Of a stretch of 40,190 nt of DNA, positions 5,440-36,437 are shown in pieces. Source of the DNA: a virus; IMG/VR virus record IMGVR_UViG_3300035698_011188, positions 1 to 40,190 of that record; one strand, given 5' to 3'. The notes beneath the pieces were generated by a model that was given only the letters and a program-made list of their open reading frames with translations, did not search any database and had not been told where the DNA came from. The position numbers were made by a program, and so were the translations under genes. Every line of letters begins with the position of its first letter. The first letter of the stretch is position 1.

Positions 5440-5681
5440 TGATTTATGAAGAAGGGGATGTAATACCAATTTACGAAGAGTTAATTGAGGAGATAGAACA
5501 AGATGTTCAGGTATGTGATGCGATAGATAGGGCAAAAAGGAGATTGATTAAAAACCTTGATGAGAGTTTAGAAGTTCGGTATCCGGGTATTACCAAAATG
5601 CATTACAGGGTAAAGGTTGAGAGTATGGAAGAGGGTGAGGTTACAATTTTAACCGAAAAAAATACTGGAACGGGAGAATGA
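5439..5681 (+). CDS. Hypothetical acidic small protein, 80 aa
   Basis: ATG at 5439 overlaps the previous TGA by one base. A GTG one codon earlier is possible but less likely. The protein is acidic (MIYEEGDVIPIYEELIEEIE), predicted mostly helical, and ends four bases into the next gene (ATGA overlap). No domain is recognised. It looks like a typical small phage accessory ORF wedged between sugar genes. Confidence 0.65.
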   Translation: MIYEEGDVIPIYEELIEEIEQDVQVCDAIDRAKRRLIKNLDESLEVRYPGITKMHYRVKVESMEEGEVTILTEKNTGTGE

Positions 5682-6085
5682 AAAAACCACGAGTCAGGTT
5701 TTGTTGGGAATGTGGTAAGCAGTTATGGGGGAACCATAACAAGGAAGTTTTGATAGATGGTCATTTGAGAATTTTACATAAACAATGTGCAGAGATGTAT
5801 AAGAAGGAGACAAGTATAATGAAAGTTGGAGATAAGATAGCCATCACAAAAGAAGACTTAATAGAAGACTTAGCTAAATGCAGCAAAATGTTAGCGTGGG
5901 GGGAGGTAACTCTTGAGATAGCCCAAAGTGCTGTCGAGTACCATAGAGACAGAGCATTAACTTTAGTAGTTGCGGAGTACCCGGAACTGTCGGAGTTTAG
6001 GTTTTCAGTTAATGGGACGGATGAAAGTACTTTTGTGGAAATAATCTCAGAGAAAGAGGAAGAAGAGAGGGGGGAGGATAAATAG
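5678..6085 (+). CDS. Hypothetical protein with N-terminal Cys knuckle, 135 aa
   Basis: Overlaps the preceding stop by 4 bases (ATGA). Residues 9-12 form CWEC followed by a His/Cys pair (LHKQC), a possible zinc site. The remainder is charged and helical with an acidic tail (EKEEEERGEDK). A good internal RBS (AAGGAG) precedes an ATG at 5819, so a shorter second product of about 88 residues could also be made. No function is assigned. Confidence 0.65.
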   Translation: MKKPRVRFCWECGKQLWGNHNKEVLIDGHLRILHKQCAEMYKKETSIMKVGDKIAITKEDLIEDLAKCSKMLAWGEVTLEIAQSAVEYHRDRALTLVVAEYPELSEFRFSVNGTDESTFVEIISEKEEEERGEDK

Positions 6086-6086
6086 T

Positions 6087-6872
6087 ATGAAAACACTAAT
6101 CACTATATGTGCAAGAGCCGGGAGTAAGGGGTTACCCGGGAAGAATACCAAACTGCTATTGGGACGCCCCTTGATCCAATACACAATCGACATTGCCAAA
6201 CATGTAAGAGCTTCAGACGTTGTCCTGTCCACTGATATAGATTTGGACAAAGATAAATGTTTGGATGTCAGTCACACCATACGTTTGGTGCGAGAGAGCT
6301 ATCTGTGTCAAGATGACACTCCCAAATTGGACGTTATCCGAGGGGCAGTTGAAGAAGGGGAGTCCCGTATTGGGGTCACGTATGACCGAGTTATTGATCT
6401 CGACGTAACCAACCCTTGCAGGGAACCCCACGATATTGACGCATGTCTTGACCTTTGTACCAAAGGGGTTGATTCAGTAGTAAGCGTAACCAGGTCCAGA
6501 CGTTCTCCATTTTTCAATATGGTTGTCAACAAACCCCATCCCCAATTAGTAGGCGCTTACTCAACCCTCCCTGTCAAAGAGTGTTGTGACGGAATCACCC
6601 GGCGTCAGGATACCCCTAATGTGTATGACATTAATGCCAATATCTACGTGTATAATCGGGATTGGCTGATGGGGGACACCAACCCTCTTCACCCGATCAC
6701 CCCTAAATCTATACTGTATGTGATGGGGGATGAGTGTGGGGTGGATATTGATAATGAAGTGGATTTTGGCATTGTTGAGGGGTTGATGGGGAGGTATTTT
6801 GGGATTAAGAAACTAAAGAAGGTAGTAACCAAGAAGGGGATATATAAGGCAGGGGTGAAGGTGAAATCATGA
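6087..6872 (+). CDS. CMP-nonulosonic acid cytidylyltransferase (NeuA/LegF/PtmB type)
   Basis: A 261-residue nucleotidyltransferase that should activate a nonulosonic acid with CTP to give CMP-NulO and pyrophosphate. Visible motifs are the CTP-binding loop ARAGSKGLPGKN (9-20), RRQDTP (172-177), the following NANIYVY strand and the metal/sugar segment DIDNEVDF (220-227), all in the order found in the CMP-sialate synthetase family. Length is slightly above the 225-235 of bacterial NeuA. The extra residues are a Lys-rich tail. RBS GGGGAGGATA lies directly upstream, and it overlaps the acyltransferase gene by ATGA. Whether it uses Neu5Ac, legionaminate or pseudaminate cannot be read from sequence. 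Confidence 0.9.
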   Translation: MKTLITICARAGSKGLPGKNTKLLLGRPLIQYTIDIAKHVRASDVVLSTDIDLDKDKCLDVSHTIRLVRESYLCQDDTPKLDVIRGAVEEGESRIGVTYDRVIDLDVTNPCREPHDIDACLDLCTKGVDSVVSVTRSRRSPFFNMVVNKPHPQLVGAYSTLPVKECCDGITRRQDTPNVYDINANIYVYNRDWLMGDTNPLHPITPKSILYVMGDECGVDIDNEVDFGIVEGLMGRYFGIKKLKKVVTKKGIYKAGVKVKS

Positions 6873-7273
6873 AGAAACCTAAATGGCAACCCCCCCACAT
6901 AACCCATGGGACCCCCACAATATACAACTGGGTAGTTCTCAACCCCCACAAACTCCTGCTCGGTACCAACACCGACATTGGGGCATTCACCCTCATCCAA
7001 GCCCTCAATGGGGTGGTGATTGATGACGATGTCCAAATAGGCAGTCACTGCTCTATATATAGTGAATCCACAATCGACAATAAATCTGGGGCAATCAGGA
7101 TTGGTAAGGGGGCAAAGATAGGGAGTCATTCCACAATCATGCCTGGGGTTACTGTAGGGGAAGGGGCGGTTGTAGGGGCGCACTCATTTGTTAACTGTGA
7201 TGTGCCAGCTGGAGTAACAGCGTTTGGTACACCAATAAAGAGATACTGGAAAGAGGGGGTGGATATACGATGA
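6869..7273 (+). CDS. Left-handed beta-helix (hexapeptide) acyltransferase
   Basis: A 134-residue protein built almost entirely of hexapeptide repeats (IGKGAKIGSHSTIMPG, VTVGEGAVVGAHSFV), ending with the family-typical AFGTPIKRYW. This is the trimeric LbetaH acetyltransferase fold. In this context it is the candidate N-acetyltransferase for the 4-amino group of the UDP-amino sugar, a LegH/PglD-like step, or an O-acetyltransferase acting on the finished NulO (NeuD/NeuO-like). It is shorter than PglD (about 195 aa) and lacks the N-terminal Rossmann-like part. Overlaps by ATGA at both ends. Confidence 0.88.
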   Translation: MKKPKWQPPHITHGTPTIYNWVVLNPHKLLLGTNTDIGAFTLIQALNGVVIDDDVQIGSHCSIYSESTIDNKSGAIRIGKGAKIGSHSTIMPGVTVGEGAVVGAHSFVNCDVPAGVTAFGTPIKRYWKEGVDIR

Positions 7274-7491
7274 GTACAAATAGCGAAGTAGCTGATGCTG
7301 TGAAAGTTTTAACTAAAGCGCTTAAGGATGACAAGGACTTTTATTATGGGTATCAATCCAATATCGCAATGGCTTTTTATGATGAGTTTAGGAGGTTTAG
7401 TGATAAGGTAGGGCGTAATACTTTACATAAAATCTCAAACAATGCTGCGAAGAATTTCTTGAGCATGTGGATATTGGAGGATAAAGATTGA
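7270..7491 (+). CDS. Hypothetical small protein, 73 aa
   Basis: Helical soluble protein (MSTNSEVADAVKVLTKALKD...) coupled to both neighbours by 4-base overlaps. Proteins with the KDDKDFYYGYQSNIAMAF pattern are, as far as I recall, common small phage ORFs of unknown function. There is no sign that it belongs to sugar metabolism. Confidence 0.65.
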   Translation: MSTNSEVADAVKVLTKALKDDKDFYYGYQSNIAMAFYDEFRRFSDKVGRNTLHKISNNAAKNFLSMWILEDKD

Positions 7492-8171
7492 ATACAGATA
7501 ATCGACCAATAGCGATAGTAGCAGGGGGGTGTGGGTTAATTGGCAAGGCCGTGGTTAAGAAATTGGTTAGCAATAGTTATTGTGTGATCAACGTAGACCC
7601 GGATTGTGATACAAGATACAGTAGAGAGGAGTTACTGCTGTTAAAAGCTGGGATTGATGATATCCCAATGCTCACTCACCTTCTCAAACAACACTCGGAC
7701 ATATCTACATTTATCAATTGCTCGTACCCGTCAGACCCTTACCAACACCTTCAGGCGTTTGAGCGGTCGACATCAATAATTGCTCAACACATGAGTAGTA
7801 ATGGAGGGGGGAGTATTGTTAATCTTTCATCAATTTACGGAGTGGTTGGGGCAAAACACTCAATCTATGAAGGGGTGGGTATAGACATGCCTCACACTTA
7901 CTCGATGATTAAGGGGGGTATTATTAGCCTTACACGGGCAATCGCTACAGCATATGGGAAGTTTAATGTTAGAGCTAATTGTGTTTCCCCAGGTGGCGTA
8001 TATGATAACCAATATCCTAAGTTTATTGATAGGTATAATGCCCGTGTCCCATTAGGGCGTATGGCAACACCAGAAGATATTGCCGACCCGGTTGTGTGGT
8101 TGGCAGGGGATGAAGCAAGGTATATCACAGGTCAGAATCTGATTGTGGATGGAGGGTTGACGGCATGGTAG
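7488..8171 (+). CDS. Short-chain dehydrogenase/reductase (PtmA-like)
   Basis: A 227-residue SDR with the NAD(P) loop AGGCGLIGK (12-20), a central NLSSIYG strand carrying the catalytic Ser, catalytic Tyr138 and Lys142 in YSMIK, and the C-terminal DGGLTAW typical of classical SDRs. It starts at TTG 7488 within TTGA overlapping the previous stop. Paired SDR (PtmA) and Gfo/Idh (PtmF) enzymes occur in legionaminic acid flagellin-glycan loci. The same pair occurs here, separated by the cytidylyltransferase. The substrate is inferred to be a sugar phosphate or nucleotide sugar. Confidence 0.87.
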   Translation: MNTDNRPIAIVAGGCGLIGKAVVKKLVSNSYCVINVDPDCDTRYSREELLLLKAGIDDIPMLTHLLKQHSDISTFINCSYPSDPYQHLQAFERSTSIIAQHMSSNGGGSIVNLSSIYGVVGAKHSIYEGVGIDMPHTYSMIKGGIISLTRAIATAYGKFNVRANCVSPGGVYDNQYPKFIDRYNARVPLGRMATPEDIADPVVWLAGDEARYITGQNLIVDGGLTAW

Positions 8172-8287
8172 AAAACCCGCAAACATTGCAGGAAGCAGCG
8201 CAGAATTTTGTAGAAGCCTTTGAGTATTTTATACTTGTGTGCTTAGAAGAATTTAGACAGGATTTAAGGAGGGTGATACCATGGTAG
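8165..8287 (+). CDS. Very small ORF, 40 aa
   Basis: ATG at 8165 overlaps the SDR stop, and the ORF ends TAG at 8287, overlapping the next start (8281). The peptide MVENPQTLQEAAQNFVEAFE continues as an amphipathic helix. The coupling to both sides is what supports it. No function is visible. Confidence 0.45.
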   Translation: MVENPQTLQEAAQNFVEAFEYFILVCLEEFRQDLRRVIPW

Positions 8288-8478
8288 GGACAATAATTAT
8301 ATGTTTACTGGTTTTATATTTGTTTGTAGATTTTATGTTTGTATGGGTTATAGCAAAATCCATGAAAGAAACCGAAGATAGACTAAGGCGTATAGAGATA
8401 CAGCTATATGATTTGCACTTTACATCCCCAGAAAAAGGGGGGTTTCCGAGTGGGTTGGGGAAGGGGGGAGTATGGTAA
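8281..8478 (+). CDS. Small single-TM protein with cytoplasmic helix
   Basis: A 65-residue protein. Residues 3-27 (GTIIICLLVLYLFVDFMFVW) form one membrane helix, then a charged coiled-coil-like segment KETEDRLRRIEIQL and a Gly-rich tail. RBS AAGGAGGG precedes the ATG. One of three small membrane proteins placed between cassette enzymes. A membrane anchor for a partner protein is conceivable, but nothing proves it. Confidence 0.65.
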   Translation: MVGTIIICLLVLYLFVDFMFVWVIAKSMKETEDRLRRIEIQLYDLHFTSPEKGGFPSGLGKGGVW

Positions 8479-8669
8479 CTGATGTATGTTTAGTATGTAT
8501 AACCATTTTAATGATCGGGGTGTTGGTCAATGTGTGTAAGGGGTTAACCCATATATCACAGCAATTGGAAGATATGCATAGTAATTTAAACATTGCTATC
8601 AGCTATCTGAACAGTATTGATTCAACTTTAGTCTATTGGGATGAGAGGGGGGAGGGTACTGATGATTAA
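8472..8669 (+). CDS. Small single-TM protein with coiled coil
   Basis: A 65-residue protein overlapping its neighbours on both sides. The N-terminal hydrophobic helix (VCLVCITILMIGVLVNVC) is followed by a heptad-like region HISQQLEDMHSNLNIAISYL. The architecture resembles the preceding ORF, suggesting an ancient tandem pair with little remaining identity. Function unknown. Confidence 0.65.
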   Translation: MVTDVCLVCITILMIGVLVNVCKGLTHISQQLEDMHSNLNIAISYLNSIDSTLVYWDERGEGTDD

Positions 8670-9801
8670 AATATGTGTAGTAACAGGATCCAGAGCAGAC
8701 TACGGAATACTTGAACCACTAATCAAACGTCTTCACGAGTCAGACGACATAACCTTAGAGCTAATCGCTACTGGTTCCCACCTTTCCCGGATGCACGGGC
8801 TAACCGGACGCCACATAAAGTACCCTCACCATCAAGTAGAGTGTACTATGGCTTCGGGCACCCCATACGGCATTTGCAAATCCCTCGGGATAGTAGTCCA
8901 TGATTTTGCCCACATCAAACCTTGGAATTTTGATTGCGTAGTCCTGCTTGGTGATCGGTATGAGATATTGGGTGCCGCATTAGCTTGCTACATCCAACGT
9001 ATCCCCATCGCCCACATCCACGGGGGAGAATCCACATATGGCAACTACGACGACGCATTCCGACACTCAATATCCCATATGGCATCCCTCCACTTCACAG
9101 CTACCCAACAATCTACTGAAAGGCTATACCAGATGGGTCAGAAACCCCAATCCGTCTACAACGTGGGCGCAATGGGAATTGAGGACTTATCAAGGGTCAA
9201 GTCCACTGAACGGATCAGATCTCAAGTTGTGGTATGTTATCATCCTGTGACATTGGACGGAGGGGAGGACAGGGAGGATTTCCAAGTACTATTGGACTAC
9301 TTGGTTGCTAATAAGAAAAAGTATACTCCAGTGTTCATTCGCCCCAATTCAGATAACGGTGGAGCAGAAATCAACAAGATGATTGACGTAACAATCAACA
9401 AAATGGGGGTAAGTGGTTATGCATGGGAGGTGTATGCATCGATGAGCAGGGGGGATTTTATTGAGTTGCTAAATGAGTCATGGTGTTTGGTTGGGAATAG
9501 TTCAGCAGGGATAATTGAAACGCCAGCAATGGGAATGCCCAGTATTAATATTGGTAAAAGGCAAATGGGTAGAGCAAAAGCAGAATCAGTGATTAATACC
9601 CCAATGACTGCTGTCGATTTGAGTTTAGCATTTAGAGTTGCTTATGATGACAATTTTATTAAATCGTTGGACTATGGGGATTATGAGCAGCCCTACTCAG
9701 GTGACCAAGACGGAGTACTTGCATCGTTGGCAATCTACAATGTGTTGAAACGAGTACTCCCAATAACCTCAACCATGAAGGAGTGGTATAATGCATCTTG
9801 A
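8662..9801 (+). CDS. NeuC-type UDP-sugar 2-epimerase (hydrolysing), LegG/PtmD-like
   Basis: A 379-residue GT-B-fold epimerase. Motifs in order are GSRADYG (9-15), GDRYEIL (97-103), HIHGGE (118-123), DDAFRHSISHM (130-140) and the UDP-binding GNSSAGIIETP (278-288). This is the pattern of hydrolysing 2-epimerases that release ManNAc (NeuC) or 2,4-diacetamido-trideoxy-mannose (LegG). The ATG at 8662 was chosen because it follows GGGGGGAGGG by about 7 bases and begins the canonical MIKICVVTGSRADYG. The upstream in-frame ATG at 8641 would put the RBS inside the gene. It overlaps the aminotransferase start by 11 bases, so coupling is likely. Confidence 0.92.
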   Translation: MIKICVVTGSRADYGILEPLIKRLHESDDITLELIATGSHLSRMHGLTGRHIKYPHHQVECTMASGTPYGICKSLGIVVHDFAHIKPWNFDCVVLLGDRYEILGAALACYIQRIPIAHIHGGESTYGNYDDAFRHSISHMASLHFTATQQSTERLYQMGQKPQSVYNVGAMGIEDLSRVKSTERIRSQVVVCYHPVTLDGGEDREDFQVLLDYLVANKKKYTPVFIRPNSDNGGAEINKMIDVTINKMGVSGYAWEVYASMSRGDFIELLNESWCLVGNSSAGIIETPAMGMPSINIGKRQMGRAKAESVINTPMTAVDLSLAFRVAYDDNFIKSLDYGDYEQPYSGDQDGVLASLAIYNVLKRVLPITSTMKEWYNAS

Positions 9802-10849
9802 TTTCGGAAACTTAAATGAAAGTGACGCAGCCCGTGTAGCAGCAAGCGTTCGTGAAGGGCAGGTATCTACCGCTTGTGACGGGGTCAACCATTTTGAACT
9901 CATGTTTAGTAATTACCTCGGGGTTGATTCCTGTATCGCTACCAACACCGGAACATCATCCCTCCACCTTGCCCTTCTCGCATGTGGGATAGGGTCAGGT
10001 GACGAGGTAATCATCCCTGCCTTAACTTTTATAGCAACAGCCAATGTCGTCCAATACGTCGGGGCCACCCCAGTGGTATGCGACGTAGACCCTCATACCT
10101 GGAACATGTCAGTAGAAACTATTGAACGACTCATAACTGATAAGACTAAAGCAATCATCCCCGTTCACTTATATGGTAACCCATGCGACATGACTCCAAT
10201 CATGGAGTTAATCAGTATTCAGCATGATAAAATCTGGGTGATTGAGGACGCTGCTGAAGCATTAGGGGCTACCTACAAATCCTCAATGATTGGGACTATA
10301 GGGGATTTCGGATGCTTTAGTCTCAATGGCAATAAAACTATCACCAGTGGGGCGGGAGGGGTGCTGGTTAGTAACCATAAAGATAGGTTGTCATTTGCCC
10401 ACAAGCTCTCTATCCCGGGACATAATCCGGAATTATGCAGTTACAACTACAGAATGCCCAATATCTGTGCGGCACTCGCGTCTTCCCAACTCCGGAAGTT
10501 GAATGAGTTCCTCCGTATCAAACGGTATCACCATGAACTATACCGTCAGAACCTTAATGACTCATTCATCCTTCAACGCCCATCACCATATTCCAATCCT
10601 TCTTGGTGGATGACTGCGGTTAGGTACATAGGGCCAGACCAACTGCTACATGCTGGGGGGTGGGTATTCCCAACAAGGCGGGTATTTCAACCTTTACAAT
10701 TTACCCCACGGTTTACAGCATTTCTGGGAGAGTCAGAGAGTGTATATGATTCTGGTGTCTGTCTTCCATCATCAACCCTTAACACTGAAGAGGAGATTCT
10801 CCAGGTATGCGAGACTTTGAATCAACTTACCACAACCCAACAATCTTAA
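9791..10849 (+). CDS. DegT/DnrJ/EryC1-family sugar aminotransferase (LegC/PseC-like)
   Basis: A 352-residue PLP enzyme expected to transaminate a 4-keto nucleotide sugar, with glutamate as usual amino donor. Visible are the NTGTSSLHLAL cofactor phosphate loop (about residues 55-65), GDEVIIPALTFIATANV, the PLP aspartate in IEDAAEALGA and the Schiff-base Lys182 in FSLNGNKTITSG. The usual internal Lys context is SF(H/N)..K, so the active site appears intact. Length is a little below the 370-390 typical of LegC/PseC. It immediately precedes, and overlaps by 43 bases, the 4,6-dehydratase gene that would make its substrate. Confidence 0.92.
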   Translation: MHLDFGNLNESDAARVAASVREGQVSTACDGVNHFELMFSNYLGVDSCIATNTGTSSLHLALLACGIGSGDEVIIPALTFIATANVVQYVGATPVVCDVDPHTWNMSVETIERLITDKTKAIIPVHLYGNPCDMTPIMELISIQHDKIWVIEDAAEALGATYKSSMIGTIGDFGCFSLNGNKTITSGAGGVLVSNHKDRLSFAHKLSIPGHNPELCSYNYRMPNICAALASSQLRKLNEFLRIKRYHHELYRQNLNDSFILQRPSPYSNPSWWMTAVRYIGPDQLLHAGGWVFPTRRVFQPLQFTPRFTAFLGESESVYDSGVCLPSSTLNTEEEILQVCETLNQLTTTQQS

Positions 10850-11763
10850 TCACTGGTGGGACCGGGACATTAGGCCAAGCACTTGCTCAACACTTCGTCC
10901 TAAACCACCCACAGGTAAAAATCATCATCTATTCCCGTAACGAGAACGCACAGGTTGAGATGAAGCGCCGTTTCCCCAATCCCAAATACAACATCCGGTA
11001 TTTCATAGGGGACGTTCGGGATTACGACCGGCTATATTGGGCAATGCACGGCGCCCATTACGTAATCCATTGTGCAGCACTCAAACACGTAGACGTGTGT
11101 GAAACCGACCCGTTTGAGGCGGTCCAAACCAACATCATAGGTGCTCAAAATATCATCAAATGTGCAGTAGACTTAAGCGTGGATAAAGTAATTGCTATCT
11201 CATCAGACAAAGCAGTCAATCCCATAAACACATACGGCGCTACCAAACTATGTGCTGACAGGATGTTTCTTGCTGCTCCAACTTACGCGGGAGCATCCGG
11301 TACTAAGTTCGCCATCGCCCGACCAGGGAATTACGCAGGATCAAGCGGGTCAGTTATACCATTATTCACATCACTAAAAACACAGGGTGTAGGGGTTGTC
11401 CCTATTACTCACCATAACATGACCCGGTTTTTCATTGACCTCCCCACTATGACGCAGCACGTCATACATTATCTCAAGAATATGGAAGGTGGGGAGGTCT
11501 ACATCCCTAAGATGGGGGCGGTGAGGATTGTGGAGTTGGCTGACGCTATATACCCAGAGGCTACAAAGGAATATATTGGGTTACGTCCCGGGGAAAAGTT
11601 GCATGAGGATATGATTTGTCCACATGAGGTGCCGTATACTTACGATAAAAAGGGGTATTATTACATACATCAATACCGAGAGGGGGTTATAAAAGTGCCC
11701 TCTGATTTTACGTATAATTCAGGGGATACCAAATGGTTGGTGGATCCTAAAACAATATTATAA
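10807..11763 (+). CDS. UDP-GlcNAc 4,6-dehydratase, PseB/FlaA1 type
   Basis: A 318-residue extended SDR of the Polysacc_synt_2 family, soluble and without the transmembrane half of WbpM/PglF. The NAD loop is TGGTGTLG (16-23). FIGDVRD and the catalytic D134/K135 (SSDKA) with Y143/K147 (YGATK) match the spacing of Helicobacter FlaA1. GLRPGEKLHE near the C-terminus is another family signature. It should convert UDP-GlcNAc to a 4-keto-6-deoxy sugar, the first committed step. PseB-type enzymes invert C5 (pseudaminate route), whereas retaining relatives feed the legionaminate route. Sequence reading cannot settle which. The ATG at 10807 lies inside the preceding gene. Confidence 0.92.
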   Translation: MRDFESTYHNPTILITGGTGTLGQALAQHFVLNHPQVKIIIYSRNENAQVEMKRRFPNPKYNIRYFIGDVRDYDRLYWAMHGAHYVIHCAALKHVDVCETDPFEAVQTNIIGAQNIIKCAVDLSVDKVIAISSDKAVNPINTYGATKLCADRMFLAAPTYAGASGTKFAIARPGNYAGSSGSVIPLFTSLKTQGVGVVPITHHNMTRFFIDLPTMTQHVIHYLKNMEGGEVYIPKMGAVRIVELADAIYPEATKEYIGLRPGEKLHEDMICPHEVPYTYDKKGYYYIHQYREGVIKVPSDFTYNSGDTKWLVDPKTIL

Positions 11764-11778
11764 AGGAGTGAGAGGGGT

Positions 11779-11970
11779 ATGGGCAGGTCATTTAAAAAGT
11801 TTCAATGGAGTAATTTCAGTAGTCAACTTGGGTTACTTACAGGGGTCCCTATAAGTTTTCTTATAGTTGGCTGTACAAATTTCGGCTGGGGGTTTGCTGC
11901 GGGTATAGGGTTAAGCTGTATGTTTCAAGCATTAACACAATATGGGCATATAAAAAAGGGGGGAAGGTAA
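11779..11970 (+). CDS. Small hydrophobic protein, 63 aa, two predicted TM helices
   Basis: Has a good RBS (AAAGGAGTGAGAGGGG). Residues about 14-32 and 35-52 are hydrophobic (LGLLTGVPISFLIVGC, GWGFAAGIGLSCMF), flanked by basic ends, so a small hairpin membrane protein is likely. It ends with TAATG shared with the NeuB-like gene. Function unknown. The size would fit a membrane tether or a small holin-like protein, but the position argues against lysis. Confidence 0.65.
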   Translation: MGRSFKKFQWSNFSSQLGLLTGVPISFLIVGCTNFGWGFAAGIGLSCMFQALTQYGHIKKGGR

Positions 11971-12782
11971 TGAGCAGCACATATATAGTCGCAGACATTG
12001 GGATTTCACACAACGGATCCCTGACAATTGCCAAACAACTTATAGGCCAGGCCAAACTCTGCGGGGTAGACGCAGTTAAATTCCAGTTATTCAAAAACTT
12101 CCCCGACTTAACACAATATGAATTGTCTGAATCAGAGATTGCTGAATGTTTCACTTATGCTAAACAACTATCAATTGACGCATTCGCCACCCCGTTTGAT
12201 AAACCCTCGATTGAATTTCTTAGTGACTACCAAACCACATGGAAAATCCCAAGTGGGTTTGCTACCAACCGAGACTATATAGGGATGGTGATTGACCAAA
12301 ACCCAGAACACTTAATATTGTCTACGGGGATGTGTAATATCTACGAGGTCATAGAGAGTGTTGGGTATATAAAAACTGCTTGGAGAGATTACTGTCACGA
12401 AAAGTTTACCGTATTACAATGCACCACTGATTACCCTGCAGATATCGACACAATAAATCTGAATGTCCTATACCAGTATGCAGGTAGGCAGTACGGGCTA
12501 TCCCTCCACACCCCCAACATCTATATCCCGGCAGCGGCGGTCGCAATGGGGGCAAAGGTAATCGAAGTCCACATCACCACCGACCGTACCCAACCCGGAG
12601 GGGATCACGCAGCAAGTTATGACGCAACCCTCCTTAAGGAGATGGTAATAGGGGTGAGACATGTGGAACGGGCATTGGGGGATGGGGTAAAGAGGCCGAG
12701 TGAGGAGGAAAAGTTGGTGGTGGAGGAGATCAGGAGTAAGATGGAGAAATCATTTAACTGTATACCGGAGGAGGCAACGTAA
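11970..12782 (+). CDS. NeuB-type nonulosonic acid synthase, lacking SAF domain
   Basis: A 270-residue TIM-barrel synthase condensing a 2-acetamido-mannose-type sugar with phosphoenolpyruvate to give the nine-carbon acid. Motifs are ADIGISHNG (8-16), VDAVKFQLF (33-41), ATPFDKPS, LSTGMCN, EVHITTDR (H201) and GGDHAAS (H213), the conserved metal and PEP region. Bacterial NeuB, LegI and PseI are about 340-350 aa and end with an antifreeze-like SAF domain that completes the active site of the partner subunit. Here the protein stops after the barrel. No in-frame continuation or separate SAF ORF was seen. It is an unusual single-domain form, probably still active but unproven. Confidence 0.9.
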   Translation: MSSTYIVADIGISHNGSLTIAKQLIGQAKLCGVDAVKFQLFKNFPDLTQYELSESEIAECFTYAKQLSIDAFATPFDKPSIEFLSDYQTTWKIPSGFATNRDYIGMVIDQNPEHLILSTGMCNIYEVIESVGYIKTAWRDYCHEKFTVLQCTTDYPADIDTINLNVLYQYAGRQYGLSLHTPNIYIPAAAVAMGAKVIEVHITTDRTQPGGDHAASYDATLLKEMVIGVRHVERALGDGVKRPSEEEKLVVEEIRSKMEKSFNCIPEEAT

Positions 12783-12997
12783 TGGCTAAATTAGAAATAC
12801 CATTAAATGTAAAATTAGACTCAGAACTACAAAGATTACTTTCCACAAGGCTATATGTTTGTAGGGCAACTAAATGTATCCACAACGACATGAATCGAAC
12901 CTGCAAGGGGCTCCACTGTGGATTCAAAGATATAAAGTTAAATGAAGGTGGAGAGTGTATTCACTATAATGAGATAAAGGAGGCTACCAAACCATGA
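12782..12997 (+). CDS. Small Cys-rich hypothetical protein, 71 aa
   Basis: Coupled to both neighbours (TAATG and ATGA overlaps). Six cysteines in the pattern CRATKCIHND...CKGLHCGF...GECIHY suggest a zinc- or disulfide-stabilised knuckle. No named domain can be assigned. It sits between the NeuB-like and amidotransferase genes but may be an ordinary phage ORF. Confidence 0.65.
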   Translation: MAKLEIPLNVKLDSELQRLLSTRLYVCRATKCIHNDMNRTCKGLHCGFKDIKLNEGGECIHYNEIKEATKP

Positions 12998-14070
12998 AAT
13001 ACTGTAAAAAATGCTTAACACCAACTACCCGACCCAGAGTCCACTTCAACCATGCCGGAATCTGCAATGCTTGTACTTATGCCGAAACTGCCCCTACCAT
13101 AGATTGGGCATCCCGGTGGTCCAAGCTCCTTGCCCTGTGTGACCAATTCCGTGGCGCTCAATACCACGACTGCATAGTCCCAGTATCAGGCGGCAAAGAC
13201 GGGTCCCATGTAGCCCACACTCTCAAACATACTCTTGGGATGAATCCACTATGCATCTCCATCTCTCCCCCATTGCAAACTCAAATAGGCCGGCACAACC
13301 TGGACAATTTCCGTAATTCCGGGTATGACTTGATTGAAATTCGTCCCGACCCCCACATCTACAAGTCTTTATGTAAACAGTTATTTATTGAACAAGCCCG
13401 GTGTAAATTCCCATTCGTAATTGGGATATCCACTGCCATCATTAAAGAATCCACCCAACGCCAAATCCCCTTAGTGTTTTGGGGTGAGCAAGGAGAAGAG
13501 ATTTATGGAGGTGACCCGTCATTCAACGACAGCTTTTTTATCCCATATGAGTTTATCACAAAGTGTTACCATGAAGGGATTAAGATGTCTGACTACACCA
13601 GTCACCATTTATGGCAAATGCCCAAGCAACGTGAAGTTGGAAGTTACCATACTTGGTGGAGTAAATGGGAGTTGTGGGATGACCAATTACACAGGGATAC
13701 GGCAATCAACCATTGTGGGATGACTGTCAGTGATGGGGAGGTGGGGACATTCACTAACTACTCCCAGTTAGACGATGTCCTCCAAGACCTTCACATGTAT
13801 GAGTGCTTTCTAAAGTTTGGTACTGGGAGAGCCACGGCTGATGTTAATTTGGCAATTCATGCGGGGAGGATGACCCGTGCAGAAGGGGTTGAGATAGTTA
13901 GGAGTCAGGATGGGGTATTCCCAATTGAGTATTTGGATACTTACCTGGACTTCTTCCAGATGACTGCTGAGGAATTTTGGATGGTGATTGATTCTCATGC
14001 AAACAGGGATATACTACTTAAAATGAACGAAAAATCTCAACCATGGATACTTAAAGAGGAGGCAATATGA
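12994..14070 (+). CDS. N-acetyl sugar amidotransferase (PseA/PtmG/WbpG type)
   Basis: A 358-residue ATP-pyrophosphatase (PP-loop) enzyme. A zinc knuckle uses C4, C7, C24 and C27, followed by the ATP-binding VSGGKDGSH (64-72) and the conserved WGEQGEEIYGG region. PseA and PtmG convert an N-acetyl group on pseudaminic or legionaminic acid into an acetamidino group, with ammonia from a glutaminase partner. WbpG acts similarly in O-antigen synthesis. No HisH-like glutaminase gene is visible, so ammonia may come from solution or a host protein. The gene follows the NulO synthase with only the small Cys-rich ORF between them, supporting a late tailoring step. Confidence 0.9.
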   Translation: MKYCKKCLTPTTRPRVHFNHAGICNACTYAETAPTIDWASRWSKLLALCDQFRGAQYHDCIVPVSGGKDGSHVAHTLKHTLGMNPLCISISPPLQTQIGRHNLDNFRNSGYDLIEIRPDPHIYKSLCKQLFIEQARCKFPFVIGISTAIIKESTQRQIPLVFWGEQGEEIYGGDPSFNDSFFIPYEFITKCYHEGIKMSDYTSHHLWQMPKQREVGSYHTWWSKWELWDDQLHRDTAINHCGMTVSDGEVGTFTNYSQLDDVLQDLHMYECFLKFGTGRATADVNLAIHAGRMTRAEGVEIVRSQDGVFPIEYLDTYLDFFQMTAEEFWMVIDSHANRDILLKMNEKSQPWILKEEAI

Positions 14071-14297
14071 CAATCAAAGCAGCGTATGGAATACCAAAAC
14101 CTGCGGTTAGTGGGCAGTTTGTGACATCTGTAACTTTTTACTTTAATAACCCCTCAGAATATAGTGGTCTAAAAAGTGTTATTGATGACTACATATCTGG
14201 TGCTATGGTGTCCAGAGAGTTACAGTGCGAGGCTGTTGACCCTGCCATTACCACTATCAATATAGACACAGTTAACATTTATGAGATACCAATATGA
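14067..14297 (+). CDS. Hypothetical small protein, 76 aa
   Basis: Linked by ATGA overlaps to the amidotransferase and the sulfotransferase. The protein has a beta-rich look with a phage-like pattern (FVTSVTFYFNNPSEYSGLKS) and no cysteines or signal sequence of note. Function unknown. Confidence 0.62.
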   Translation: MTIKAAYGIPKPAVSGQFVTSVTFYFNNPSEYSGLKSVIDDYISGAMVSRELQCEAVDPAITTINIDTVNIYEIPI

Positions 14298-15172
14298 CAA
14301 TCCCTACAAACTACACAGACTTACTATCCAATCGACTCTTACTAATCACCGGAGTGGGGCGTTCCGGAACCACCATACTCGGCAAACTCCTTGGGTCGTG
14401 CTCCCTCTCCTATTACTTGTTCGAACCGGCTATTATGAAATACTCCGGTAACTCATCCTGGTGGGATTGGGGAACAATCATGGAGGATTACTTTATCCCC
14501 CAAATCCAGGGAAGGAATATCAACACCCGTTTTACTGAGGATTCCTGGATAGGTAATTATGAACACCCTTTTGATCACCGGGATCGCAATATCCTTCTCC
14601 CCCGTCACGACAATGTTATTGAGTATATCAAACTCAATCGCCCCCTGTTCATTATCAAATCCCCAGAGATGCAGGAATACATTTCTCAATTTACACGTTA
14701 CTCTCCCGAGGGTACAAAAACTCTTGAGATAGTCCGTAACGGGTATGACGTAATCCAATCCTCCCTTAAGCGAGGGTGGTTTACTGATGATTGGTTACCC
14801 ATAGAGGTTTGCTATACCGACACCAATATCCCATGTTACATCCCCAAACGTCATGTTGTTGATTGGGGTTCCTACACTCCAACCACTCGTGCGGCGCTCA
14901 CTTGGACAACTTTGACTGGCCGTGGAATGCTCCATCGGGATCAACCCTATTACCGTTGGCTAAGATACGAAACCCTTTGTGCTTTACCTGAAGACACCAT
15001 CCATGGTATAATCAAATGGATAGGTGGGATTCACCCAACCACTATAACCGCCACCCACCTACACTCAGTACAGGTAAGGGGTACCCCCCAAACCATTTCC
15101 TTATCTGACATTCAACCCCCGGTTCGACAACTATTCACCACCACCATGGAGGAGCTCGGTTATGACATTTGA
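14294..15172 (+). CDS. Sulfotransferase-family protein
   Basis: A 292-residue protein with the PAPS 5'-phosphosulfate loop GVGRSGTTILG (20-30) and the 3'-phosphate motif VRNGYDVIQSSLKRG (147-161, R148 and S156/S157), the diagnostic pair of the sulfotransferase superfamily. It would move sulfate from PAPS to a hydroxyl, most likely on a sugar or lipid in this setting. It is the last enzyme of the cassette. No PAPS-making gene is present, so host PAPS would be needed. The sense strand is unusually C-rich throughout. Confidence 0.85.
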   Translation: MTIPTNYTDLLSNRLLLITGVGRSGTTILGKLLGSCSLSYYLFEPAIMKYSGNSSWWDWGTIMEDYFIPQIQGRNINTRFTEDSWIGNYEHPFDHRDRNILLPRHDNVIEYIKLNRPLFIIKSPEMQEYISQFTRYSPEGTKTLEIVRNGYDVIQSSLKRGWFTDDWLPIEVCYTDTNIPCYIPKRHVVDWGSYTPTTRAALTWTTLTGRGMLHRDQPYYRWLRYETLCALPEDTIHGIIKWIGGIHPTTITATHLHSVQVRGTPQTISLSDIQPPVRQLFTTTMEELGYDI

Positions 15173-29216: not shown

Positions 29217-32200
29217 ATGCCTGGAGGTGGAGTAGGATCATTATTAGTCACTCTTAAGTTAGATAACCGTGAGTTTACTAAGCAACTCAAGATCACCAAA
29301 AAAGATATGGTTGAGGTTGATAATAAGACCAAAAACCTTAACAAATCTATGGGTAGCTTAAAAGGTGCTGTGAAGTTAGCAGCAGCCGCCCTTGCTGTGT
29401 TGGGTGTGGCTAAAGTAACTAAGTCGTTTTTTGACGCTGGCTTACAAGCTAATCGAATGGACAAGGCCCTATCGGCTGCAACAGGGAGTACTACAGGTGC
29501 GGCAAAGGCTACCAAGTTTTTGTGGGATCAAAGTAATAAACTTGGTTTAAGTTTTGAAGAACAGCTGAGTAACTATACACGGTTAGCAGCATCCGGTAGG
29601 GAGTTGGGGTTTAGTAGTAAAGAGATTGAACGTACCTGGAGTGGGTTGGCTAAAGCAGGTACAGCGCTTCAGTTATCAACGGAGGATATGACGGGGATAT
29701 TCCGTGCCGTTGATCAGATGATGAACAAGGGTAAAATCCAGGCCGAAGAATTGAGAGGCCAACTGGCTGAACGTCTCCCTGGGGCATATGCCATGACTGC
29801 TCGAGCCATGGGGATTACCACCCAGGAACTCTCCAAACAATTAGAATTAGGCAAAGTTTACACCGCAGACGTCCTTCCCAAACTCATTGACTTAATGCAC
29901 AACGAATACACTGAAGGTGCCAAAGCTGGCGCTGAAACCCTCAATGCTGCTGTGGAAAGATCCAAATCAGCATGGTTTGGGTTACGTAAAACTGTCATGG
30001 ATGCTGGGATCAGTGAATTATTAGCAGACAACCTAAACGCTATGACAACTGCTACTAATGAATGGCTAACCACTAACGAAACGGCCATTCAAAAATTTGT
30101 AAAAGACTGGGCGATGGGTATACGGGGTGTGGGTGGCATGTACGAGGATATTGCTACTCAAGCAGGGGTATTCTTTAGCGTAGTAGCTGATGGTAAAGGG
30201 TTATCTGAATACCGGAAAGTTCTAGAAGAAATGGGGGAGATGGGTAAACTCTCTGGTATGGACACTGACCAGGCAATTATTAGCCAAATAGGGATTGGGA
30301 AATTTCAGGCATCCCAGGCCAATTTAAAAAAACTAAGGCAGTTAGAGAGTGGGGAATTTGTTCCAGGGGAAAGAGGCCCTAAAAGAGCCAAGGAGGCGGC
30401 AGACGCAGAGCGGCAATTACTGCGAGATACTAAAACCTTACGGGACGCTACTGCTAAAGACCGCGAAAAAGCAATAGAGAAATTGCATAAACAGATAATG
30501 AACAACAATCGTCAAGAGGAGATTGGGTCTGTGAATTGGTGGGCTGGGGAGCGAGATAGGGTCCAGGATGGGTTTGAGTTACGTGCAACAGCCGAGATGG
30601 GTTTGGGAGAGTTAATTAAATACAGTCAGACTCAAGAAGCGGGGTTATCTGCACAGATTACTAAACATAATATAGATCAGAAATTCAAAGAAGTAGAGGC
30701 AGTCCAAAAACTCTCAGATAAAAGTTTCAAAAAAGCTACTGAGAATAATAAAAAGTTCAATAGTATGTCTGATAAGTATACTGAGCAACAAAAGCAAAAA
30801 GCGCAAGAAAGGTTTGATTACAATAAAACACTGATAGAAGCGTCAGATATATCTATTGATGCTAATTATAATAAAAAAGTAAACCTTCTCAATAAAGAGT
30901 TTGAGGCCGAGCAGGATAAGTATGGTAAATCCAAAATGGCCCAACAAACCCATGATAAAGAGATGGAAGATCTTGCTAAACTCCACGCAGAGGAAAAACT
31001 CAAAGCGGATAAAACCTTTACGGGTGGTGTTAAATTAGGGTTAGCAGGTATAACCCAGGACCAAATAACGTGGGCTGATCTTGGATTATCTATAACTGAG
31101 GGGGCAGCCGGGGGGATGAGTGGTGCCCTAAAAACCATGTTTATTGATGCCGCCACTGGCGATCTTCAAGGGTTTTCCACATACTGGGATACTTTCTTTG
31201 GGGGGTTACTAACCAAAGTCACTGACACAGTTGTTGATATGGGAGTCCAATGGGCGTTAGGTGCTGTCCAAGACGGTATGGCTGGGTGGTGGCCTTTTGA
31301 TCAAGGCGCATGGCAAGTAGGTAAAGACCAAGTAGCAATGATCCACAAAGACGAAATGATTATCCCTGCTGACGCCGCAAGTGTACTAAGGTCAATGTCC
31401 AACAGAGGGTTTGGTGGAGATAACTTACCTAAGTCAGCTGATATGAAAGGATCTATGCCGCCGGGGTTGGCTACACCGTTTGGTGCACATGCAATGGGGC
31501 CATTAAAAGCTAATGTTGGTATGGGGTTTGCTCAATTAATCAAAACAGGTGACCCATCAGGGCTTGCTAATCTTGCTGGTCCGGGGATGGCGGCAAATAT
31601 GATAGGAGCAGAGGTTACAGGGAGTATAAAGGATGCACTTGGGTTATATGGAAAGTTTGCCAACTATGGAGGTATGGTGGGTCAGGGCTTGGCTATGGCG
31701 GGGACAGGTGCAACAGGGCCTTTTTCTACAATTATAGGCGGTGTAGGTAATATAATAGGGGCACTTGCGGGGGATGCGTTAGGGGATATTTTTAATGCGA
31801 GGGACAATGAGGTAAACCGTGATGCTTTTGAAGATGTTTACGGGAGAATTAAAGGCAGTAAGGTTAACAGAGATGTTGAAAAGGCCTTGGATATAATAGC
31901 TAAAAACATTGATATGTTTGGTGGGTATGGAGCGTTTGTAAAGCGTGATAGTCACCTTAGCGGAATGGACACAAGAGGTGGGGATGGTAGAGGCGGCGGT
32001 GGAGGTACTGGCACAACATCACATTCTGTTGCTGACGCTTCAAAGTTCCATGGTGGGGGCAGGTTAGGCCCAGGTGAGGGGTATTTTTTAGGCAAACAAA
32101 ACGAAGAAGTGCTTAGTGAAATAAACGTAGACAGAATTGAAAAGGCCCTTATGGCAGGAGGGGGTGGGGCTTCAATAGTGGTAAACAATTATGGCGCCAT

Positions 32201-32315
32201 CACCTTAGAGGATTTTGCCGTAATGATCGCCAAAGTCATGCAGGACAACAACCAAAACCGTATGGGGAATATCTACACCCCAGGGTCACCAACCAGTGCA
32301 GGATTAAGGATGTAA
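29217..32315 (+). CDS. Tail tape measure protein
   Basis: A 1032-residue protein, the longest spliced product of the window. The N-terminal region (LLVTLKLDNREFTKQLKITK) and the tape-measure domain about 80-250 (GFSSKEIERTWSGLAKAGT, MNKGKIQAEELRGQLAERLP, GITTQELSKQLELGKV) are typical, followed by long charged helices at about 450-600, hydrophobic Ala/Gly-rich segments and the hallmark MIHKDEMIIPADA (708-720). It sets tail length and helps DNA ejection. By the usual 1.5 angstrom per residue rule the tail would be roughly 150 nm. The gene follows the chaperone GT by 5 bases. Confidence 0.95.
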   Translation: MPGGGVGSLLVTLKLDNREFTKQLKITKKDMVEVDNKTKNLNKSMGSLKGAVKLAAAALAVLGVAKVTKSFFDAGLQANRMDKALSAATGSTTGAAKATKFLWDQSNKLGLSFEEQLSNYTRLAASGRELGFSSKEIERTWSGLAKAGTALQLSTEDMTGIFRAVDQMMNKGKIQAEELRGQLAERLPGAYAMTARAMGITTQELSKQLELGKVYTADVLPKLIDLMHNEYTEGAKAGAETLNAAVERSKSAWFGLRKTVMDAGISELLADNLNAMTTATNEWLTTNETAIQKFVKDWAMGIRGVGGMYEDIATQAGVFFSVVADGKGLSEYRKVLEEMGEMGKLSGMDTDQAIISQIGIGKFQASQANLKKLRQLESGEFVPGERGPKRAKEAADAERQLLRDTKTLRDATAKDREKAIEKLHKQIMNNNRQEEIGSVNWWAGERDRVQDGFELRATAEMGLGELIKYSQTQEAGLSAQITKHNIDQKFKEVEAVQKLSDKSFKKATENNKKFNSMSDKYTEQQKQKAQERFDYNKTLIEASDISIDANYNKKVNLLNKEFEAEQDKYGKSKMAQQTHDKEMEDLAKLHAEEKLKADKTFTGGVKLGLAGITQDQITWADLGLSITEGAAGGMSGALKTMFIDAATGDLQGFSTYWDTFFGGLLTKVTDTVVDMGVQWALGAVQDGMAGWWPFDQGAWQVGKDQVAMIHKDEMIIPADAASVLRSMSNRGFGGDNLPKSADMKGSMPPGLATPFGAHAMGPLKANVGMGFAQLIKTGDPSGLANLAGPGMAANMIGAEVTGSIKDALGLYGKFANYGGMVGQGLAMAGTGATGPFSTIIGGVGNIIGALAGDALGDIFNARDNEVNRDAFEDVYGRIKGSKVNRDVEKALDIIAKNIDMFGGYGAFVKRDSHLSGMDTRGGDGRGGGGGTGTTSHSVADASKFHGGGRLGPGEGYFLGKQNEEVLSEINVDRIEKALMAGGGGASIVVNNYGAITLEDFAVMIAKVMQDNNQNRMGNIYTPGSPTSAGLRM

Positions 32316-32319: not shown

Positions 32320-34722
32320 ATGGGTACAATACTTATAGCAGAAAATATACTAACAGATAGTGATTTCTCGGCAGCTACACAGCAGGGAGCGTATATTGGT
32401 CAGCCGGTGGCGGGGAGTACCAACACCGGAAGTGCAAGGCCTGTTACGAGTGGGACACTATCAGATTTTAGTTTCTCAGGGACTGCTGATTCAACAGGGT
32501 CTGCTACCAAGATGGTTGATGCAACCCTGAATGTGTTGGGGGATAATTACCTAAAGGGCGCCACTATTGAGTTTGTGAGTGGGGAAAACTCCGCTGGGAC
32601 AGCCACAATTACCGCGTCTTCTCAGGCTACAGGGGCAGTGAGTTGGTCATCAAGTGTTAACCCTACCAAGGTGGGGGATACGTTTACTGTTACTCGGGAT
32701 GTGGATGATGTGGATTTTGCCGTAGAGATTGAAGAGAGTGGGATGATGTCTGTTGGAGATGGTACTTTTAAATGGAGCCATGACGGTGGGAGTAATTATT
32801 TAGGGAGAGATGACCCGTATCAAGCAACATGGCTCGGCGAGCAAACTCTTGTAAGTGGCAACCTCCAATCTGCGTTAGGACATGCAATTGGGGAAGCAGC
32901 AGACGAAACACGTTTGATTGCATACCTCCACTCAGATAATACTCTTAGGCTGTTAAAATCATCCGATGAGGGGGTGTTATGGTCTGAATCAACAATTGCC
33001 ACTGGATTAGCATCCTATGCACCACAAAGTATTGTTACCATGCCTACTGGTCGAGTTATAATATTTTTAACATATACTTATTCTGCCTATCTTTATTCTG
33101 ACGATGATGGGGGTACTTGGTCCGATATTGTAAATTATGGGGTATATTATAGTGGGTATGTAAATCTACTATTAAATGGTAGTTTAGGAAATATAACCTA
33201 TAACGGGAGTTTTTACCCTGTGTACCATACATCTGCAGATGGGGGTATTACTTGGAGTTCAGGTACACTCATTGTATCCGCTGTTAGATACGGGGGGCAA
33301 ACGGTAGAATTAAACAATGGCACTTTATTTGCCATATATACAGATGGAAGTAGTAATGTTCTACATGCCTCCTCGACTGATGGGGGCTCTACTTGGACAG
33401 AAGCAAGTGGGAAGATTTATGATGCAGCAGGGTCAGGTAAACTCTGGACAACACCAAATGTTCTTGTAGACATAAACGGGGACTTGTATGTTACTGCTAC
33501 TAATTGGACTGATGGCGGTATATATATAAATAAATCCGTTGATTATGGAACCACGTGGACTGCAACTGGCTCTACTTTACAAGTATCCAGTAGAAAGGGT
33601 ACTTCAAGGGTAAAATTATTTAATGGACACAGTATATTAGCAATTTTTGATGATGGGTCAAACAATCTTTATTGCGTAAGGCGTGGGGTATGGGAAACCT
33701 TCTCCTCAAATGCCTGTCCATGTGCAAGAAATGTGATTCCCCAAAATCTTATTTGTGGTACAGATTTAACATGGGAAGGGAGTTATGCGACAGATGGTGA
33801 CACCTGGACGTTTGCCCCACAATACCAGTTCCCAATGACCAGTTTGATTACGGACTCCCCATCCAAGCAATGGAAATCCCTTTCAGACAACACTCCTATC
33901 ACTATCCTAATCGACATGGGGGCTAACGAACGTCACTTTGCTGACGGTGTAGCATTCTTTGGTTGTAACATCAGAACTTTTGATTTTCAAATGAACGCTA
34001 CCAACGTGTGGACTTCCCCATCAGTTGATGAGACAATTTCATTTGACCTTACCTCCTCAGGGGTTGTTGACTCAGTATCTGGTAATTACATTGAAGACGC
34101 CGCACTCATGGCAAATTACAAAGATCATGAATTGGTAGACAAATACATAGCTATGACTTCAGGTACTGATAACGGGATGACTTGGAAAATCAAAGACAAC
34201 GTAGGGGATTATATAGTTCTTGATACTACCTCCGCAATCAATGTGGGTGCTGCTGATACATTTGCCATATTTAATCACCGGGTAGCCAAAACCTTTACCG
34301 CAGGGGTGTATAGGTATATCCGTATTTCAATTGGCTCACTTCAAACAGCAGATAACTATTATCAAATAGGTACTATGATTGCCGGTAAAGCCGTCACCCT
34401 ATCTGATGACTGGTCTGTAGGGTATGGGCATGGCACATCTTTTGACAACATCAACCTATTGCAAACCCCGTCAAAACAGGTCTATGCAATTAAATCAGGG
34501 GAGGAACGTGATACATTCGACCTTACATGGGCAGTTAGCGATGACGGAATCAAAGAAGTCGTCCACACTCTTAAATACCTTGACGGAAAAAACATTGCTT
34601 TAATCCCTGATTCATCTACAATGACATCGTGTTGGCCTGTTAAGTTATATGGGGATGTGGGTCGGTCACAAGTATTCAAAGATGAAGACACAATGACAAT
34701 CAACCTTCGGGAAATTGTATAA
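32320..34722 (+). CDS. Distal tail protein with sialidase-like Asp-box propeller
   Basis: An 800-residue protein after the tape measure. Five clear Asp boxes (S-x-D-x-G-x-x-W) occur at about 214-221 (SSDEGVLW), 260-267 (SDDDGGTW), 305-312 (SADGGITW), 352-359 (STDGGSTW) and 406-413 (SVDYGTTW), plus a degenerate one at 153-160, at 45-61 residue spacing, the mark of a BNR/sialidase beta-propeller. No F/Y-R-I-P motif was seen, so catalysis is uncertain. The flanking N-terminal (1-150) and C-terminal (500-800) parts are tail-type, suggesting an inserted propeller. It shares one base (A of TAATG) with the next gene. Confidence 0.8.
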   Translation: MGTILIAENILTDSDFSAATQQGAYIGQPVAGSTNTGSARPVTSGTLSDFSFSGTADSTGSATKMVDATLNVLGDNYLKGATIEFVSGENSAGTATITASSQATGAVSWSSSVNPTKVGDTFTVTRDVDDVDFAVEIEESGMMSVGDGTFKWSHDGGSNYLGRDDPYQATWLGEQTLVSGNLQSALGHAIGEAADETRLIAYLHSDNTLRLLKSSDEGVLWSESTIATGLASYAPQSIVTMPTGRVIIFLTYTYSAYLYSDDDGGTWSDIVNYGVYYSGYVNLLLNGSLGNITYNGSFYPVYHTSADGGITWSSGTLIVSAVRYGGQTVELNNGTLFAIYTDGSSNVLHASSTDGGSTWTEASGKIYDAAGSGKLWTTPNVLVDINGDLYVTATNWTDGGIYINKSVDYGTTWTATGSTLQVSSRKGTSRVKLFNGHSILAIFDDGSNNLYCVRRGVWETFSSNACPCARNVIPQNLICGTDLTWEGSYATDGDTWTFAPQYQFPMTSLITDSPSKQWKSLSDNTPITILIDMGANERHFADGVAFFGCNIRTFDFQMNATNVWTSPSVDETISFDLTSSGVVDSVSGNYIEDAALMANYKDHELVDKYIAMTSGTDNGMTWKIKDNVGDYIVLDTTSAINVGAADTFAIFNHRVAKTFTAGVYRYIRISIGSLQTADNYYQIGTMIAGKAVTLSDDWSVGYGHGTSFDNINLLQTPSKQVYAIKSGEERDTFDLTWAVSDDGIKEVVHTLKYLDGKNIALIPDSSTMTSCWPVKLYGDVGRSQVFKDEDTMTINLREIV

Positions 34723-36437
34723 TGAGTTCTGTAATCCAATCAGCCATAGCTAATTCCAGACAGATATACCTATTAGTTGATATTCAATTTGGCGGGGTGA
34801 ACAAGCGTATCTCCACCAAAAACATATCCGTGCCAGTGTCTGAGACATCCCGCACAGCATCCGGACAAATGGAGTGGGACACTGGTATGGATTGGGACAC
34901 AGGAATGAGCTGGGATACAGATTCTGACACTGTAGGGGCAATCTCAGAGTACTTTTTTGATGGGATTATCCTTAACCAACTTACCATAGCTAAAACCTTT
35001 GATATTCGAACATTCCGGTATTCCACCTCTGATGTTCAAATCCTTATTTCCAATCACGATAGGTTTCAGGATTTCGAAACCAAATACAGGGTTGAAGGGA
35101 GTGTGGGGAAAGTGTATGTGTGGTCACCGGGGTTAACATGGGCGCAGATCTCTACTGATGGGCTGATATTTGAAGGGGTGTTCCAAAAAAACTGGCATAC
35201 TAATTTCCAATATTCATTTTCACTTATTGAACGATCTCGTAACAAGGTGTTATCAATACCTAAACTTCAAATCAATACTGATACATGGTATCGCCATAAA
35301 CAAACTGATGATGGCATGGGTAGCGTTTCAGGACTACCAGTCCCTGTTATATTTGGCGAGACTACTGGTGGACAGTTACTATATATGGTAAACACACTTG
35401 CTGATCTAAGCCATGACCCTACTTATGCCATAGCAGAAGGTGGGAACAAAATCGCATCAAGCGACTTTTCTTCTTCGGGGACAAAAAATGTATGGAATGC
35501 GGATGGTACGGTAGTTGCCACTTCGTATATTAGTTACTCGGAAAGTGTGGATGGGTTGGGCAACCCTGTGTCACAAATTGCGTATACCACTGGTGGAGTA
35601 GCGGCGTATGGATCTTCTAACCAGCCAATGACTTGTAGTTTTGCTGGAAAGGTTGACGGCAGCGGTGAGTACACAGGAACTGCCAACACACTCATTGAAC
35701 ACCCTGCTGACATAACTAAATTCCTATTAGATAAAAACTCAATCGATGGTGTTGACATTACTGAGGATGTTACGTTTGGCACAATGAAATCCATACTGAA
35801 AAGTGGGTGGAAGTTTACCACTACGGTTAATGTGTTTGCTAATGTATTGGATGTGGTTGATAGGTTACTATACCAGTGTCAAGCAGCCTTAGTAACCCGT
35901 ATAGGTGGGAAATTAGGGGTGATGACATTAAACACTGATGGCGTGTCAATAGGTAGAATAGATTTGGATAAAGAGGCTATTGCATCCGACATCCCTATAT
36001 CCCGTACACCTTATGACATGGTCTACAACAACATAAATGTTAATTACCAATACAATCCAACAAGTGAAAAGTTTGAGAAGAGCGCGCCTGTGTATGGGCC
36101 AAACAGCACAGTGGAAAAGATCAAACAGTCAAGAGGGGAGTATGGAATACAGCCCGAGTTCCAGCTTAATTGTACTGACATAGGGCAAGCATATACCGCA
36201 GTTTACAGCGCTAAAAGATTTATGGATATATTTGCTTTCAGACACGATACTTTCACTATTGACTTGCCTTATAGGGTGGTGTGGGATATGGTAGAAGGGG
36301 ATGTGATAGAGGTGACTTATACAGGTGGGAGTAGCAAAGACGGTAGCGGATGGGTGGACGAAAGGTGTATATTGTTGAGTAGGAGTTTTCACAGCGACAG
36401 GATTACCACTACTTGGTGGAGAATAAGTACGGAATAA
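34722..36437 (+). CDS. Tail hub/baseplate-like protein
   Basis: A 571-residue protein with a mostly beta-structured, soluble pattern. Residues 51-66 contain three WDTGM-type repeats (EWDTGMDWDTGMSWDT), an unusual Asp/Trp-rich patch. Elements such as GVNKRISTKNISVPVSE and SDVQILISNHDRFQDFET resemble siphophage tail proteins downstream of the tape measure (Tal or DUF2163-like). Location after the Asp-box protein fits a tail tip component. Confidence 0.72.
   Translation: MSSVIQSAIANSRQIYLLVDIQFGGVNKRISTKNISVPVSETSRTASGQMEWDTGMDWDTGMSWDTDSDTVGAISEYFFDGIILNQLTIAKTFDIRTFRYSTSDVQILISNHDRFQDFETKYRVEGSVGKVYVWSPGLTWAQISTDGLIFEGVFQKNWHTNFQYSFSLIERSRNKVLSIPKLQINTDTWYRHKQTDDGMGSVSGLPVPVIFGETTGGQLLYMVNTLADLSHDPTYAIAEGGNKIASSDFSSSGTKNVWNADGTVVATSYISYSESVDGLGNPVSQIAYTTGGVAAYGSSNQPMTCSFAGKVDGSGEYTGTANTLIEHPADITKFLLDKNSIDGVDITEDVTFGTMKSILKSGWKFTTTVNVFANVLDVVDRLLYQCQAALVTRIGGKLGVMTLNTDGVSIGRIDLDKEAIASDIPISRTPYDMVYNNINVNYQYNPTSEKFEKSAPVYGPNSTVEKIKQSRGEYGIQPEFQLNCTDIGQAYTAVYSAKRFMDIFAFRHDTFTIDLPYRVVWDMVEGDVIEVTYTGGSSKDGSGWVDERCILLSRSFHSDRITTTWWRISTE

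Follow-up and report, generated by a model that had tools for sequence, protein, structure and literature searches.

The propeller gene occupies positions 32320-34722 (+ strand) of the window, a stretch of 40,190 nucleotides covering positions 1 to 40,190 of the IMG/VR virus record IMGVR_UViG_3300035698_011188, and encodes a protein of 800 aa. The upstream neighbour (29217..32315, + strand) is a tape measure protein, identified by both Pfam (TMP_3, 2e-25) and PHROG (tape measure, 2.4e-46). The downstream tail gene (34722..36437, + strand), a putative hub, shares 1 base with the stop codon of the propeller gene; its product matched no Pfam or PHROG family, and in 11 related records a homologue with 32-39% identity follows the propeller gene. 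An earlier note on this DNA, made by reading the sequence, had set an Asp-box protein between the tape measure and tail hub genes. The position behind the tape measure and ahead of another tail gene, with tail-type segments on either side of the boxes, was upheld, but the “tail hub” label is positional, since 34722..36437 is without a Pfam or PHROG match, although the gene order is kept in the 11 records. The propeller protein gave no significant PHROG match. Among the other tail genes, two major-tail-protein-like genes form an adjacent pair at 27362-28123 and 28149-28580, and the tail-fibre-like protein encoded at 36454-37977 (PHROG tail fiber, 1.2e-14) begins with an apparent signal peptide, which is unusual for a virion protein.

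Five canonical Asp boxes of the form S-x-D-x-G-x-x-W were located by motif scan on the + strand: SSDEGVLW (residues 214-221, 32959..32982), SDDDGGTW (residues 260-267, 33097..33120), SADGGITW (residues 305-312, 33232..33255), STDGGSTW (residues 352-359, 33373..33396) and SVDYGTTW (residues 406-413, 33535..33558). Their starts are spaced by 46, 45, 47 and 54 residues. Composition-preserving shuffles of the protein (n = 100,000) gave an expectation of 0.033 boxes per shuffle, and four boxes were reached in none of the 100,000. Only one further S-x-D-x-G-x-x-W motif was found elsewhere in the window across all six frames. Motif count and shuffles thus confirm the five canonical boxes at 45-54-residue spacing that had been reported previously. 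A sixth, shorter Asp-box-like element, the hairpin SHDGGSNY (residues 153-160, 32776..32799, + strand), lies outside the propeller and is kept in most homologues.

The canonical boxes fall within a six-bladed Asp-box beta-propeller spanning residues 172-459 (32833..33696, + strand). Pfam BNR_2 (PF13088) was matched at 4.4e-13 with 49.7 bits against a cut-off of 31.4, and at E ≤ 0.01 in 12 of the 14 rows of the family alignment (A5). AlphaFold2 supplied with this alignment returned the six-bladed propeller at a pLDDT of ~80-90, while the single-sequence model was useless (pLDDT 33). The N-terminal strand 172-178 apparently closes the last blade in the AlphaFold2 model. The predicted strands likewise gave six blades, with the boxes between strands 3 and 4; five blades carry canonical boxes and the sixth has a degenerate box at R454/R455. 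The propeller is flanked by an N-terminal tail-scaffold region (residues 1-171, 32320..32832, + strand) and a C-terminal one (residues 460-800, 33697..34719, + strand), both modelled partly poorly with pLDDT often <50.

A Foldseek search against the PDB identified the P. aeruginosa pseudaminidase 2w38 as the best match, together with many GH33 sialidases and strong matches to the non-enzymatic Photorhabdus propeller lectins PLL/PHL. The rmsd was ~3.7-4.4 Å in the shorter alignments and large in others, the large values probably stemming from alignments that reach into the badly modelled flanks. Against BFVD, 129 viral matches were obtained at E ≤ 0.001, and such propeller folds are therefore not rare among viral proteins. 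A sequence profile compared with GH33 structures gave a best match of 3.4e-16 (4fj6). The claim of a sialidase-type Asp-box propeller in a tail protein was therefore borne out by BNR_2, AlphaFold2, Foldseek and the GH33 profile, and the structure prediction that the earlier note had proposed as a check did yield a propeller. Duplication of a BR0599-like small domain on either side of the propeller was also considered and rejected, as the Pfam match (E 0.079) was below cut-off and comparing the two halves with each other showed no convincing similarity.

Whole-protein scans of phage, viral and genome collections gave no relatives. With the C-terminal 270 residues as query, two full-length viral homologues were found, and alignments built from these recovered more, for a total of about a dozen uncharacterised viral homologues, most of which adjoin the same downstream tail gene. 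Full-length or nearly full-length sequences were available for the window protein and L091, L092, L093, L094, L095, L096, L098, L101, L113 and L116; L099 and L100 are partial homologues, and L103 and L104 are distant. The full-length homologues recovered by the C-terminal scaffold query all carry propellers, and every homologue covering the region has Asp boxes, even where it was recovered by patterns drawn from outside the propeller. The propeller thus belongs to a conserved, uncharacterised tail-protein family with no PHROG match. No relative of the propeller protein was detectable in L002-L004, which contain tape-measure matches, or in L006, which contains a capsid match. Microcystis phage Mwe-JY05, which has its own BNR_2 propeller, gave a weak tblastn match (E 0.07) and was left out of the comparison.

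Several relatives carry additional modules in the scaffold, for which a loop of the N-terminal region (within residues 1-171) serves as an insertion site. A CBM_4_9 domain is inserted in the scaffold of L092 (E 1.8e-9) and a laminin-G-like domain in that of L098 (E 2.5e-18), whereas L096, L100 and L116 have other scaffold inserts with no Pfam name. The window protein itself contains no inserted carbohydrate-binding module apart from the propeller. In L098 (6001-9465), long Ser-rich stretches flank the laminin-G-like domain in the C-terminal scaffold.

Non-viral sialidases share an (F/Y)RIP motif, an arginine triad and conserved Asp, Glu and Tyr residues (PMC9782813). No (F/Y)RIP motif with its first arginine was found in the window protein; FRIP-like strings occur in relatives only (NRFP in L092, DRIP in L098 and YRFP in L101) and at differing places. 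In the profile alignment to 4fj6, whose catalytic residues were assigned from the motif pattern, its Glu, Arg2, Arg3 and Tyr are matched in the window protein by S278, Y294, S344 and T378, and the family columns at these four positions are mixed or Asp-rich and do not hold the required residue. Because this alignment shifts the blades by one relative to natural propeller closure, blade starts and strand ends were also inspected in the natural register, where no conserved R, E or Y was found except Y340, which is located in a strand. In either register, the window protein has no arginine triad, nor is one conserved among 12 relatives; the same is true of the nucleophilic Tyr with its Glu. The only conserved arginines of the propeller are R245, in a turn on the Asp-box face, R455 and, in part, R454, none of which is at an active-site position. 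An Asp corresponding to the acid/base residue of the first blade may be seen in D206, which lies in the corresponding loop; Asp is common there in relatives but inconsistently aligned, and D206 carries no weight without the other catalytic residues. Judged by its sequence, the propeller fails the residue tests for a sialidase-type enzyme. The earlier remark that neither FRIP nor a clear arginine triad could be seen was correct by both motif and family alignment, and the further search it advised for the triad and Tyr/Glu did not find them.

Conservation is distributed unevenly over the protein. Identity to the window protein is 38-57% in the N-terminal flank across 12 viral homologues and 40-52% in the C-terminal flank, but 21-30% in the propeller. 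On the Asp-box face of the propeller, the turns that hold a box have a mean pairwise identity of 0.59 and the remaining turns one of 0.47, and all of them are nearly free of indels. The loops of the opposite face have mean pairwise identities of 0.14 and 0.17, with gaps and insertions; faces were assigned from predicted strands and general propeller topology, not from coordinates. In Asp-box glycosidases the active site is on the face opposite the boxes (PMC2716378), and the variable face here is therefore the one that sialidases use to bind substrate.

These observations are most readily accounted for by a conserved tail-tip scaffold bearing a non-catalytic Asp-box propeller that binds a host glycan through its variable face, a reading that we regard as probable. 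A non-catalytic adhesion role is the most likely one because the sialidase fold is present and the sialidase active site is absent. The scaffold regions would hold the propeller between them, and the variable face, presumably exposed, would grip its ligand, in all likelihood a glycan of the host surface, reversibly; the propeller would then aid first contact or orientation, with other proteins completing infection. Gene position suggests a place at the tail tip, where the protein would form a ring or a Dit-like component, the Dit-like role following from position because the flanks are poorly modelled. The combination of a variable face with added CBM_4_9 or laminin-G modules is, by analogy, typical of an adhesion device: the receptor-binding protein of phi11 has a propeller for which sugar binding is proposed (PMC4901313), and hosts are bound by Dit proteins that carry CBMs in their loops (PMC7291167). 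The suggestion in the earlier note of receptor recognition or cleavage is accordingly plausible for recognition but unsupported for cleavage, for which the catalytic residues are missing. The true receptor binder might be the product of the separate tail-fibre-like gene at 36454-37977.

Several known systems are close to the protein. GH33 exo-sialidases, including 2w38, resemble it in the six-bladed propeller, in the Asp boxes of the outer-strand turns and in the profile match to 4fj6; the window protein differs in lacking the FRIP arginine, the triad and the Tyr/Glu pair and in being embedded in a tail protein. The GH58 endosialidases of phages such as K1F and phi92 are likewise phage tail proteins with a six-bladed Asp-box propeller. 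They are trimeric tailspike enzymes with a chaperone-type C-terminus, whereas the window gene adjoins the tape measure and its product ends in a conserved tail-scaffold region; Pfam detected no endosialidase, S74-type or intramolecular-chaperone domain in the window protein. Evolved Dit proteins are similar in gene position, immediately downstream of the tape measure and ahead of a further tail gene (whose Tal/hub identity is putative), and in the carbohydrate-binding modules seen in the scaffolds of relatives L092 and L098. Here, however, the module that is always added is an Asp-box propeller, and the likeness of the scaffold to Dit, which has an N-terminal ring domain and a galectin-like domain, is positional, with low-confidence models of the flanks and no Pfam match to a Dit family in the window protein. 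The Photorhabdus PLL/PHL lectins are non-enzymatic sugar-binding propellers but have seven blades and are bacterial. Gp45 of the S. aureus phage phi11 also has a propeller, with a proposed sugar-binding cavity, in a host-recognition protein; it is likened by fold class and not by Asp-box kinship, has five blades, and is a side receptor-binding protein rather than a neighbour of the tape measure.

A sialidase-fold propeller appears to have been turned into an adhesion surface, diversifying on the side where sialidases take up substrate. Should binding be confirmed, the “evolved Dit” principle would extend from small CBMs to a sialidase-type propeller. Such tail proteins should not be annotated as sialidases.

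A purely structural role, in which the propeller is a spacer in a tail-tip ring that binds nothing and its loops drift under weak constraint, was judged unlikely. Hypervariable loops can also reflect relaxed constraint, and the presence of the propeller in every family member covering the region is what would be expected of an integral part. Against this, conservation would be expected of a structural interface, whereas one entire face is hypervariable and indel-rich beside scaffold of ~50% identity, and proteins of this family also carry inserted carbohydrate-binding modules. Less probable still is another Asp-box-propeller glycosidase or lyase (exo-arabinanase-like or BNR_4-like) acting on a host polysaccharide. 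Asp-box propellers are known in several glycosidase families (PMC2716378), and exo-arabinanase 3a71 was among the profile matches (E 2.3e-6), but, the Asp boxes apart, no pair of acidic residues is invariant: the near-invariant D384 belongs to a turn of the Asp-box face, and at the E346 column the window protein has no acidic residue.

The window also contains a near-complete NulO (legionaminate-like) biosynthesis island of ten genes (4624..15172, + strand). The island encodes GFO/IDH, cytidylyltransferase, hexapeptide transferase, SDR, NeuC, LegC-like, PseB/LegB-like, NeuB, WbuX-type amidotransferase and sulfotransferase proteins. A sister record, G009 (L096 for the propeller protein), carries this island with its gene order unchanged at 28-53% identity (L106:4307-15214), and its synteny with the window extends over terminase, portal, capsid and tail. 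Scanning bacterial genomes for LegC indicated no host, as the enzymes were only 32-41% identical and came from many phyla. The earlier note had called the pairing of a sialidase-like propeller with synthesis of a sialic-acid-like sugar a striking coincidence. The island is real and its order is kept in G009, but a special link is weakened, as NeuB occurs in 2 of the 15 records with the propeller tail protein, namely the window and G009. No NeuB was found in the 76-kb and 99-kb records carrying the tail protein, nor was the tail protein found in three further viral records that have a WbuX-like gene; many related records are fragments, and a missing NeuB or tail protein is weak evidence because the records may be incomplete. 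A fixed coupling of propeller and NulO synthesis is unsupported on these counts, as is a functional link. In the window and G009, the island and the tail module may simply have been inherited together. That the propeller is a catalytically dead NulO binder tuned to the phage's own sugar, with synthesis and recognition co-evolving, is very doubtful. The least probable reading is an active sialidase or NulO-hydrolase (pseudaminidase- or legionaminidase-like) cleaving host or self-made NulO: despite the top Foldseek match to pseudaminidase 2w38, the GH33 sialidases as nearest solved sequences and the NulO genes in the phage, the required residues are missing from the window protein and not kept across the family, the window protein has no FRIP, the conserved arginines belong to an Asp-box-face turn (R245) and the degenerate sixth box (R454/R455), and the similarity in searches comes from the Asp boxes and the common fold.

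The NeuB ORF as listed (11970-12782) encodes 270 aa with an apparently short N-terminus; because the open frame extends over 319 codons, translation probably begins further upstream, at a codon that the listing does not include. The large terminase ORF (1435-4404) encodes 989 aa, compared with ~520 aa for its counterpart in G009. Between the ATPase and nuclease parts of the 989-aa product lies a LAGLIDADG_3 match (E 3.5e-4, slightly under the cut-off), which suggests that the terminase is interrupted by an intein with a homing endonuclease.
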